In this document: piece by piece, positions 24,563 through 28,852 of the stretch
Layout of the letters: each line of letters opens with the position of its first letter
Numbering within the stretch: position 1 is the stretch's first letter
Assembly: GCA_024691085.1 (NCBI GenBank)
Contig: JAILNX010000001.1
Location: 1 to 63,073, forward strand
Source: Clostridiales bacterium
Lineage (GTDB): Bacteria > Bacillota > Clostridia > Christensenellales > CAG-138
DNA length: 63,073 bases
Reading direction: 5' to 3'
The notes under the pieces: model-generated
What the model was told of the DNA's origin: nothing
Databases searched by the model: none
Seen by the model: only the letters and a program-made list of their open reading frames with translations
Position numbers and translations under genes: made by a program

Positions 24563-27500
24563 TCAGAAGCTGAATTTTATCTGGTCTGTATCGGGCAGAT
24601 CGCGGAAGCATCCGAGACGATCGAGCTTATCCATTATCGCGGTGTTCGCTTTCGTCCTGTTGGCGAAGTCCTCCTTCGAGGAATACGCGCCGTCCTTCGC
24701 TCCGTTTTCGATCAGGACCGCGACGTTCTCGCCGAGACCTGCGACTGAGGTGAACGGCGGACGGATCTTTCCGTCCTCGATGACAAAGGTCTTTGCCTTC
24801 GACTTATAGATATCGACGGGCAAAAGCTCGAATCCGCGCATATTCATTTCGGCGACGACCTCGAGTATGGTTATCGCGTCCTTTTCCTTCTGGTCGGGCT
24901 TGTCCTTAGCTTTAAGGATCTTAAGGTTCTGCATGACCTCGTCAAGCCCGCCGAGGCAAAGCTCGATATCGAAGGTATCCGCCCTTACCGTAAAGTACAC
25001 CGCGTAGAACTCCAGAGGATAATGGACCTTGTAATACGCGATGCGGAAGCTCATCATAACGTAAGCCGCGGCGTGCGCTCTCGGGAACATGTACTTGATC
25101 TTCTTGCAGCTGTCGACGAACCATGACGGGATCTTGTTTTCATCCATCATTTGCTCCATCTCGGGCTTTAATCCCCTGCCCTTTCGGACGCTCTCCATCG
25201 TCTTGAACGACATGGACGGATCGCAGCCCTGCGAGATCAGATAATTCATAATGTCGTCGCGGGTGCAGATGACCTCCATCAAAGTGGCGATCTTGTTCTG
25301 CACGAGCACCTGCGCGTTGTTGTTCCAGACGTCGGTGCCGTGGGAAAGGCCGGATATCCTGACGAGCTCCTCCATCGTCTTCGGCCTTGTTTCGATCAGC
25401 ATTCCGCGAACGAAATTTGTGCCGAATTCGGGGATCGCGAGCGAGCCGACGTCGCAGCCGAGGGGCTCGAGGCTAACGCCCAGCGCTTTATCGGTCGAAT
25501 AGATCGACAAGGTCTCGGGATCGTCGAGCGGGATGGTCCTCGGATCGAGTCCGGTTATGTCGTTAAGCATTCTCAGTACGGTCGGATCATCATGGCCGAG
25601 TATGTCAAGCTTGACCAGCTTATCGTCGAGCGCGTGGAAATCAAAATGCGTGGTGACGGATCCGGCGTCGTTCTTATCGGCGGGATGCTGAACGGGGCAG
25701 AAATCAAAGATCTCGTAATCCTCGGGAACGATAACGATGCCGCCCGGGTGCTGGCCGGATGTTTTCTTGACGCCGAGACAGCCCTGCACGAGCCTGTTGA
25801 TCTCCGGCTCGGTCTTGTTGAGTCCGAGTTCTTCGCAGTAATGCTTTACGTAGCCGTAAACCGTCTTATCCTGCACGGCCGAAATGGTGCCGGCGCGGAA
25901 AGCGTGACCTTTGCCGAACATCTCCTCGGTAAAGTGATGCGCTACGGGCTGATAATCGCCCGAGAAGTTAAGGTCGATATCCGGAGTCTTGTCGCCCTTG
26001 AATCCCAGGAATACCTCGAACGGAATATCGTATCCCTCTTTTTTCAGCTTTGTTCCGCAGACGGGACAGTTCTTGTCGGGAAGGTCGATGCCGCACCTTG
26101 ACTTGGCGTCCTGAACAAACTCCGAATACTTGCAGTTCGGGCAGAGATAATGCGGCGGAAGCGAATTGACCTCGGTGATGCCGAGCATCGTCGCGACAAA
26201 GCTCGAGCCGACCGAGCCTCGCGAGCCGACAAGGTATCCGTCGCCCAAAGACTTCGAAACAAGCTTCTGTGCGACCATATAGAGCGAAGAATAACCGTTT
26301 CCGACTATAGACTTGAGCTCCTTGTCAAGACGCTTCTGAACGACCTCGGGCAGAGGGTCGCCGTAGCGTCTGTGAGCCTCGTTCATGGTCATGCTCTCAA
26401 GAATCTCCTTCGCGTTCGGAAGCTCGGGAGAATAGGTGAACTTCTCGTCAAGGAACGGATGGAGCTGTTCGCCGCACATGTCAGCAATTATATTCGGATT
26501 TGTGATAACGACTTCCTTCGCCCTCTCTTCGCCGAGATACGAGAACTCCCCGAGCATCTCTTCCGTCGTTCTGAAATAGAGAGGCGTCATACGGCTCGCG
26601 TCGGGATAGCCCTGGGAATGCAGGAGGATCGAACGGAATATCGCGTCGTCGGGATCCTGGAAATGAACGTCGCAGGTAGCGACGGTGAGCTTGTTAAGCT
26701 TGTCGCCTATCTCGATAACGCGCCGGTTGAAATTGCGAAGATCTTCAATCGAATAGGCAGAATCCGGCGATTCGGTCATGAACATATTGTTGTCGAGCGG
26801 CTGGATCTCAAGATAATCGTAGAAGCCCGCGATACGCTCCTGTTCCTCCTCGCTCTTGCCGCGGCTGACCGCGCGGTAAAGCTCGCCCGCTTCACACGCC
26901 GAGCCGAGGATCAGACCCTCGCGCAGCATATGAAGAAGGCTCCTCGGGACGCAGGGGCGTTTGTGGAAGTACTGAAGATGCGAGTATGATACGAGCTTGT
27001 AAAGGTTTTTGAGGCCTTTAAGCGAAGCGGCAAGGATAATGATGTGAAATCTCTGCAGCTTCTTAAGATCTGCTTTTGTCCTGTTAAAATACGGAAGACC
27101 TTTTACTTCCCTCTCGACCAGCTCGGAAACGAGCCCGGAAGATATCCCGACCAGAGCGTCAATATCTTCTGCCATACTTCTTCTGGGAAGCTCTTCGAAT
27201 CTGCCGCTTATCGGACAGCAGCCGGACTCCATGCTGTAATCCTTGATATCAAGGTGCATATTGAGTTCGAGCTTGTTTATGTCAACGTATTCCACCGGGA
27301 AAACGTCGTCGGTAAATGAAAGCGAAGCGATCGCGTTCAATATGTTTTCGTTGAAAGCGAAAACGACGGAACCGTCGATAAAGTCAAGGAGCGACTTTAT
27401 TACTTTCTCCCCGTCGGGCGCAGATGCGTAATCCTCTTCCTTGATGCCGCATTCCTCCGTCGCCCATTTGGGAAGGGCGGCGCCGTTATTGACGAGCGTG

Positions 27501-28852
27501 TCGAATCGACCGAGGATATTGCCTTCGCGGTCGAATTTAGCGGCGCTTACGGCAAAGACGCTTGACTCCGTATTGCCCTTTGCGAAGATCGCTGAAACGG
27601 CGCAGTAAGGCCTCTCGTCGATTTCATGGATCACGGAATCGCTGACGAGGTATCCTTCGCATCCGAATATGACCTTGATATTGTTTGCTTTTGCGGCCTT
27701 CATCGCTTCGGGGAGCGAATGAACTACGCCGTGATCAGTGATGGCGATCGCCTTATGACCCCATTTCGCGGCGGTGGCGATGACCTCGGAGACCTTGGTA
27801 AGAGCGTCCATCGTTGAGGACTGGGTATGCAGATGAAGCTCTACGCGTTTCTCACCGTCGTAAGCGTCTTTGCGTTTTACAGCCTCGCACCTGTTGACGT
27901 CGTTGACGAAGAAGATGTAGTCCCTCGTATAGCTGTCGTATTTGTAGTTTCCGCGGGCGACGATCATATCTCCTGAAGAGATGATATCCTTGATGCGCTG
28001 CTCAATGGAGGCGCACTTTTCGGATTCAATAAAGAACTTCGCGGTGATCGTGTTCGTTTTGTCGGAAAAATCGATCTTGAAGATATTCTTTGCCTTGTCC
28101 CTCGTTTCGGTGATCTCGTAACCGATGATATAGCCCATTGCGCAGGCGTTTCCCGTAGTCTCGGAAAAATCCTGCATCTTTGTAAGATCGCGCTTAACTA
28201 TCTCCTTGCCGAAAACGATATCCGCCGGATCGATCGCAGGCTTCCTTGCCTGCGGCTTTTTAAAGCTTTTGCGCACTTCTTTGACGTGATCAGGATTCGA
28301 AGAGGTCTTTTCTCCCGCGAATACGCCGACGTCGTTTCTCATAACCGGAACGGCTTTCAATTCGCGCTCAGTTTCGTCCTCCGTAATGACCATTCCGAAT
28401 CTCCAGCCCCATTCCTCAAATGCTTTCCTTTTGAAAGCGGATATGCTGTCGCGGTCGACCGCCTTATACAGCACCTTCGGGATCTTAACGTTAAAAGTCA
28501 GACCGCCGTCTGACGTGTCGGATTCGATAACGGAGTTCTCAATTACAGGATAAAGCTCCGGGCTGAAATCCTCCCAGACCTTTTTGAATGACGAAACGAT
28601 ATCCTCGTCAGTCTGGAATAATATGGTATCGATAACGGTCGAAAAATCGAAGTCAAGATCGACTCTGTCGCTCCCGAGCTTATCGCAAACAAGGCGTTTT
28701 ACGGCTTCACGCTCGGTCTGATCCATAAACTTCAGTGCTTTTACGCGTATTGAAAATCTTCCGGTGCTCAACGATATCGAAGCACCGGAGATCTCAAATG
28801 CTTTATTCGAAAGAAGTTTTTCGCCAACCGAAATGTATTCCTGCCCGCTCAT
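24563..28852 (-). CDS. polC: DNA polymerase III PolC, exonuclease motifs lost
   Basis: The 1429-residue Gram-positive replicase has the usual order: an N-terminal region, an OB fold (about 235-325), PHP part one (VELHLHTQSSTMDA, 337-350; ITDHG; GCEGYLV, 397-403), the exonuclease position (about 415-580), PHP part two, a zinc motif CPNC...CPVC (904-932) and the palm with PDIDLNFSG (957-965). FPRAHAAAYV follows. The polymerase centre is intact. In the exonuclease position the DxE motif reads VSAIFAKG (D to S420, E to I422) and the HNxxFD motif reads FNENILN, so proofreading by this domain is very unlikely. It ends the frr-to-polC operon, overlapping ispG by four bases. Confidence 0.96.
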   Translation of the reverse strand: MSGQEYISVGEKLLSNKAFEISGASISLSTGRFSIRVKALKFMDQTEREAVKRLVCDKLGSDRVDLDFDFSTVIDTILFQTDEDIVSSFKKVWEDFSPELYPVIENSVIESDTSDGGLTFNVKIPKVLYKAVDRDSISAFKRKAFEEWGWRFGMVITEDETERELKAVPVMRNDVGVFAGEKTSSNPDHVKEVRKSFKKPQARKPAIDPADIVFGKEIVKRDLTKMQDFSETTGNACAMGYIIGYEITETRDKAKNIFKIDFSDKTNTITAKFFIESEKCASIEQRIKDIISSGDMIVARGNYKYDSYTRDYIFFVNDVNRCEAVKRKDAYDGEKRVELHLHTQSSTMDALTKVSEVIATAAKWGHKAIAITDHGVVHSLPEAMKAAKANNIKVIFGCEGYLVSDSVIHEIDERPYCAVSAIFAKGNTESSVFAVSAAKFDREGNILGRFDTLVNNGAALPKWATEECGIKEEDYASAPDGEKVIKSLLDFIDGSVVFAFNENILNAIASLSFTDDVFPVEYVDINKLELNMHLDIKDYSMESGCCPISGRFEELPRRSMAEDIDALVGISSGLVSELVEREVKGLPYFNRTKADLKKLQRFHIIILAASLKGLKNLYKLVSYSHLQYFHKRPCVPRSLLHMLREGLILGSACEAGELYRAVSRGKSEEEQERIAGFYDYLEIQPLDNNMFMTESPDSAYSIEDLRNFNRRVIEIGDKLNKLTVATCDVHFQDPDDAIFRSILLHSQGYPDASRMTPLYFRTTEEMLGEFSYLGEERAKEVVITNPNIIADMCGEQLHPFLDEKFTYSPELPNAKEILESMTMNEAHRRYGDPLPEVVQKRLDKELKSIVGNGYSSLYMVAQKLVSKSLGDGYLVGSRGSVGSSFVATMLGITEVNSLPPHYLCPNCKYSEFVQDAKSRCGIDLPDKNCPVCGTKLKKEGYDIPFEVFLGFKGDKTPDIDLNFSGDYQPVAHHFTEEMFGKGHAFRAGTISAVQDKTVYGYVKHYCEELGLNKTEPEINRLVQGCLGVKKTSGQHPGGIVIVPEDYEIFDFCPVQHPADKNDAGSVTTHFDFHALDDKLVKLDILGHDDPTVLRMLNDITGLDPRTIPLDDPETLSIYSTDKALGVSLEPLGCDVGSLAIPEFGTNFVRGMLIETRPKTMEELVRISGLSHGTDVWNNNAQVLVQNKIATLMEVICTRDDIMNYLISQGCDPSMSFKTMESVRKGRGLKPEMEQMMDENKIPSWFVDSCKKIKYMFPRAHAAAYVMMSFRIAYYKVHYPLEFYAVYFTVRADTFDIELCLGGLDEVMQNLKILKAKDKPDQKEKDAITILEVVAEMNMRGFELLPVDIYKSKAKTFVIEDGKIRPPFTSVAGLGENVAVLIENGAKDGAYSSKEDFANRTKANTAIMDKLDRLGCFRDLPDTDQIKFSF

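Follow-up and report, generated by a model that had tools for sequence, protein, structure and literature searches.

An apparently inactive, retained exonuclease domain in PolC of a clostridial family points to probable proofreading by a second, metal-binding domain

The polC locus and its exonuclease domain

The stretch of DNA analysed here (the window; 63,073 nucleotides of contig JAILNX010000001.1, assembly GCA_024691085.1, from a Clostridiales bacterium) carries a polC gene, which encodes the PolC-type alpha subunit of DNA polymerase III. The initial annotation had placed this gene correctly and had proposed that in its product the proofreading exonuclease is degenerate while the polymerase and PHP sites are intact. 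The product is a full-length PolC, scoring 1487.9 bits against the NCBIfam model PRK00448 (cut-off 873) and 1362.7 bits against TIGR01405 (cut-off 1043.45), and its PHP domain is split by a DnaQ-like insert. In the whole protein, Pfam matches at E<=0.001 comprise the PHP, polymerase III alpha, finger and HHH domains, while none to RNase_T was obtained. The features of the locus are the following:

24563..28852, minus strand: polC, DNA polymerase III alpha subunit, PolC type (1429 amino acids plus stop, complete; both PolC models above cut-off)
27638..27850, minus strand: PHP domain, N-terminal part, residues ~335-405 (Pfam PHP 338-405; ligands H340, H342, D349, H374 and E399 by alignment)
27053..27637, minus strand: pseudo-exonuclease, a domain of DnaQ/DEDDh fold without the catalytic set, residues ~406-600 (alignment and predicted fold)
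27575..27607, minus strand: ExoI position, YCAVSAIFAKG, residues 416-426 (DxE replaced by S420 and I422)
27341-27556, minus strand: sub-threshold RNase_T remnant, residues 433-504 (permissive whole-genome search)
27335..27367, minus strand: ExoII position, VVFAFNENILN, residues 496-506 (Asp replaced by I504)
27194..27301, minus strand: newly conserved stretch, residues 518-553 (EYVDINKLELN...SGC.PI.GR.E; genus-invariant columns, 10 rows)
27146..27184, minus strand: ExoIII position (catalytic His deleted, Asp563 stays)
26453..27052, minus strand: PHP domain, C-terminal part, residues ~601-800, approximate (ligands H603, C653, D728 and H730)
25958..25987, minus strand: polymerase active-site motif TPDIDLNFSG (D958 and D960; alignment)

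The five catalytic columns of DEDDh exonucleases, DEDHD in canonical PolC, read S420, I422, I504, gap and D563 in the family alignment, i.e. four of the five residues are lost. The earlier readings of ExoI as VSAIFAKG, of ExoII as FNENILN and of the ExoIII stretch His-Arg-Ala-x-x-Asp as unrecognisable all hold, as does the statement that the insert keeps its usual length (205 amino acids, E399 to H603). Pairwise alignment to the solved PolC of E. faecium (9qpc) yields a different register, yet it likewise places no acid opposite D431 or E433, and neither does a profile made from five degenerate sequences; according to PMC12592400, these are the two residues that were changed to obtain an exonuclease-inactivated form, which still polymerises robustly. 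The RNase_T matches in the insert, at 19.5 bits (E 0.00136) and 19.8 bits, stay below the cut-off of 24, and NCBIfam models of DEDD exonucleases match it at E 2.6e-8 and weaker, all under their own cut-offs. Judged from these sub-threshold matches, the homology of the insert to DnaQ-type exonucleases is real.

The polymerase and PHP parts are intact, as had been claimed: the catalytic pair D958/D960 is present, and so are all nine metal ligands of the PHP domain (pattern HHDHEH[C/H]DH). H603 is counted as the sixth ligand throughout; H625 was rejected for this position, since any of H, N, C, F, Y and M can stand in its column and the corresponding ligand of DnaE aligns with H603. General decay of the gene is rejected because strong constraint acts on both polymerase and PHP, with a ratio of nonsynonymous to synonymous differences (pN/pS) for the polymerase part of 0.11-0.18 in genera with a degenerate exonuclease vs 0.07-0.15 in intact genera; these ratios carry no correction, and with pS close to saturation in several genera they overstate the ratio of substitution rates (dN/dS). 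A sequencing or frame error in a single genome is likewise rejected, as the loss is common to 44 PolC sequences from separate genomes (see below). The proposal of a degenerate exonuclease beside intact polymerase and PHP domains is thus supported, and its extent across a whole clade and the kept predicted fold go beyond it.

The genes dxr, rseP and ispG precede polC on the same strand. The window also encodes the other replicative alpha subunit, for which we adopt the name used for clostridial DnaE in PMC12926913:

8628..12077, minus strand: DnaE1 (NCBIfam PRK06826, 1644.2 bits, cut-off 1260)

Distribution, fold and history of the degenerate domain

The family of the window's genome (f1) comprises 103 genomes from 26 genera, 94 of which have a PolC match; 91 PolC sequences from 22 genera were read, the matches in G082, G105 and G123 being left out. 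The catalytic set is missing in all 44 sequences from 13 genera, a regularity that argues against chance. At the five columns these sequences display 38 distinct letter combinations, and 38 of the 44 sequences have a gap in place of His. One (L203) starts after ExoI; in the 43 that are readable the insert of about 200 amino acids is always kept, i.e. the domain is deleted in none. In the nine sister genera DEDHD is complete in 46 of 47 sequences. In the remaining one (L021, from G017 of genus g6) Tyr stands in place of the first catalytic Asp (FYIETTG) and the other four residues are kept; this may reflect another, recent inactivation or a mistake in the assembly.

Among the best 80 of 578 named relatives, 76 have DEDHD. 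The other four (L061-L064), among them the metagenome-assembled genomes RGIG7138 and Hs463_bin26, are degenerate, and their PolC matches exactly that of family sequences already counted; the PolC of RGIG7138, for instance, is the same as that of G021. In an evenly drawn sample of the class, PolC occurs in 139 of 147 genomes; 127 PolC loci from 126 genomes comprise 105 with DEDHD, 17 without the insert, two cut at a contig end, one masked and two others. The latter (L398 in G209 and L406 in G264, from two other families) possess inserts of 163 and 349 amino acids between the positions of E399 and H603, devoid of the DEDDh residues and of any Pfam match at E<=10; they may be decayed exonucleases or something else, and independent degeneration is not established for them.

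Several further observations concern PolC outside this comparison. In 12 of 24 genomes from other families of the order (G037-G060), several of them 95-100% complete, only weak, DnaE-like PolC matches occur, and PolC seems to be missing there. We do not claim that loss of PolC is the next step after loss of the exonuclease: in the DnaE1 tree G023 and G032 lie next to degenerate genera and G029 next to intact ones, but only four of 50 high-quality family genomes have no PolC match, which incompleteness alone could explain. Three of six listed genomes of family f39 (G139, G170, G218) have a PolC match with one in-frame TGA. Finally, an open frame of 388 amino acids, related to the PolC palm and finger and without the PDIDL motif, is present in three of the 13 genomes of the window's genus (L408:1991-3154 in G003, L411 in G011, and L412 in G001, there with an internal stop); in G003 it is flanked by the gene for a DUF2779/Cas4-like protein on one side and that for an AAA protein on the other, and in the window's genome it was not found at E<=1e-20.

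A structural model made from five degenerate sequences alone still has the DEDDh fold, and structure searches with it (VIA-align, Foldseek) return solved PolC structures as best matches; a second model was made from 52 sequences. The whole-model Foldseek match to 9qpc has a large root-mean-square deviation (16.0), and how the two domains are placed relative to each other is unsure. The exonuclease fold is thus predicted to be retained. Selection on the domain appears relaxed but present, with a pN/pS, uncorrected as above, of 0.27 for residues 511-555 vs 0.45 for the whole domain. Loose patterns of a clamp-binding motif occur in five of 43 degenerate inserts, that of the window not among them, and such a motif is not general. 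As described in PMC5636811, the PolC exonuclease is inserted in a loop which in DnaE1 of M. tuberculosis borders the groove leading to the PHP site. Since the insert is cleanly missing in 17 of the 127 PolC loci of the class yet kept here, its persistence points to a structural or guiding role.

Trees of PolC were built with intact outgroups and without the exonuclease columns. In one, 42 degenerate sequences lie on one side of a single branch (support 93); in a second, 20 degenerate sequences group together (support 98 under a mixture model). Because of this placement a single loss is the simplest reading. In the same trees PolC L030, from the same order, adjoins L110, PolC of an uncultured Christensenella sp., and the family is probably to be placed close to Christensenella.

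Candidate proofreaders

The nine PHP ligands are kept in all 43 readable degenerate PolC, in all 47 intact PolC of the family and in all 21 DnaE1 considered, 20 of which come from degenerate genera and one from an intact genus. A survey of 2026 (PMC12926913) gives the nine ligands as the criterion for an active PHP domain, by which the sites of these PolC and DnaE1 proteins count as active. In DnaE1 of M. tuberculosis, nine such residues are reported to form a trinuclear zinc exonuclease that is its proofreader, and a change of D226 to abolish the activity (PMC5636811).

The reverse combination also occurs: in seven named relatives (L100, L104, L109, L118, L132, L139, L140) the D728 column is Asn and the exonuclease residues are complete. 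These seven are, judging by their titles, presumably Bacilli. Overall, a changed PHP site is found in none of 63 PolC with a lost, absent or altered exonuclease (L398, L406 and L021 included) vs nine of 225 with a complete one (300 sequences less eight duplicates, three with PHP cut and one masked); independence would lead one to expect about two of 63, the sequences are related, and L405 and L407 have PHP strings that are possibly misaligned. A rule by which PolC would not lose both proofreaders is only suggested by these counts.

We consider it probable that the inserted DnaQ-type exonuclease of PolC lost its activity in the ancestor of 13 of the 22 genera read, most simply in a single event, and that the domain has since persisted in a folded but non-catalytic form. 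Proofreading at the fork would then fall to the PHP metal sites of PolC and of its partner DnaE1, with mismatch repair standing behind it; for PolC in these genera this is the best inference from the sequences. The dead domain would stay because it is built into the loop beside the PHP site, where it may help to hold the PHP halves or to guide the primer end. A further-reaching version, according to which the dead DEDDh fold has become part of the PHP proofreader, guiding or closing over the primer end, and PolC is proofread by the zinc chemistry of PHP alone, is offered tentatively and is rather doubtful.

Several points weigh against this interpretation. The PHP domain is no better conserved in degenerate than in intact genera. 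One PHP ligand is changed in PolC of G. kaustophilus, which is reported to show no such nuclease activity (PMC5636811), and in the open-access literature we came across no PolC to which a PHP nuclease activity is ascribed. A separate gene of the RNase_T family is present in 15 of 27 degenerate genomes that are at least 90% complete. As to a single loss, the DnaE1 tree splits the degenerate genera, which become paraphyletic, with four changes of label, and several separate losses are therefore possible. In approximately unbiased (AU) tests, the DnaE1 data do not reject one degenerate clade (p-AU 0.185), and an arrangement resembling the DnaE1 tree is likewise not rejected by the PolC data (p-AU 0.146); the tests do not decide between one loss and several.

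Alternatively, PolC could lack any proofreading, a high replication error being tolerated and corrected mainly by MutS-dependent mismatch repair. Indeed, mutS (PF01624) is present in all 13 genomes of the window's genus, including the window's own, and in 85 of the 103 family genomes, and no other DnaQ-family gene is found in the window's genome. However, mutS is kept in the intact genera too, and conservation of the nine PHP ligands in every readable degenerate PolC across 13 genera would be unexpected if the site were useless, so that we regard this alternative as unlikely.

Still less probable is a takeover of accurate bulk synthesis by DnaE1, with PolC as a reduced partner for which proofreading is dispensable. 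The presence of DnaE1 with an intact PHP site would agree with it, as would the 12 genomes of other families with only weak, DnaE-like PolC matches, but the polymerase part of PolC is under strong purifying selection in the degenerate genera (see the pN/pS values above).

A separate DnaQ-family exonuclease that proofreads for PolC in trans, one of the proofreaders that the initial annotation had considered, is not borne out in the window's genome: a permissive whole-genome search at E<=10 gave the remnant in PolC as the sole RNase_T match, in a genome that is 94% complete, so that about 6% may be missing. It is one of 12 among the 27 degenerate genomes without a separate match at E<=1e-6 (G000, G003, G006, G011, G028, G065, G067, G070, G074, G091, G092, G094). 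Besides the 15 genomes with some separate match, this alternative can draw on a stand-alone DnaQ-like protein of about 180-190 amino acids (FDVETPN type, DEDDh intact by eye; L204-L208 and L214, the frame of L207 being longer), whose distribution is patchy (five of the 13 genomes of the window's genus, plus a single genome from a degenerate genus that is distant from it). Separate genes are, however, commoner in intact genomes of at least 90% completeness (18 of 21; missing in G018, G030 and G108), and those read are of several types and lengths, which makes proofreading in trans very improbable; the 27 and 21 genomes were counted by hand and are those with a read PolC, others such as G012 being left out. 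That the domain is still active through unusual residues in a rebuilt site is hardly credible in spite of the kept predicted fold and the one remaining acid, D563, as such a site should be conserved and the 44 sequences offer 38 letter combinations, mostly with a gap for His.

Comparison with known systems

In the open-access full-text literature we did not find any PolC described as retaining a dead exonuclease. According to the 2026 survey, the DnaQ proofreader of the polymerase III alpha subunit is not the one that is inactivated (PMC12926913); the degenerate clade did the opposite, in that the DnaQ-type domain was inactivated and the dead domain kept, with proofreading probably taken over by a second domain that binds metal. 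The clade thereby offers a natural experiment on whether the PHP domain of PolC can proofread a genome: it supplies full-length enzymes for the study of PHP activity without the canonical exonuclease, with the intact sister genera as controls.

In domain order, exonuclease-split PHP and polymerase motifs the window's PolC resembles canonical PolC (E. faecium 9qpc, 9qrn and 9qrl; G. kaustophilus 3f2b), whose DEDDh residues are active, whereas here they are gone; the seven relatives with Asn at D728 and a complete exonuclease represent the reverse arrangement. PolC without the exonuclease was described in 2013, as 6% of sequences, in Clostridia and Negativicutes (PMC3919608). Such proteins share with ours the lack of DnaQ-type proofreading in PolC and the kept PHP ligands (17 of 17 in our class sample), but they lack the insert (18-59 amino acids between E399 and H603 in that sample), and the window's PolC, which retains a domain of about 200 amino acids, does not belong to them as described there. 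Similar, too, is PolA2/APEX of Actinobacteria, a polymerase in which a 3'-5' exonuclease domain survives as a vestige, although APEX is reported to be an A-family enzyme whose vestigial domain bears a clamp-binding QxxLF (PMC12926913). Finally, DnaE1 of M. tuberculosis has nine PHP ligands of the same kinds and, as a replicase, likewise does without a canonical DnaQ-type proofreader; it differs in being of the DnaE type, with a loop of 29 residues, as reported in PMC5636811, where PolC has its exonuclease insert.

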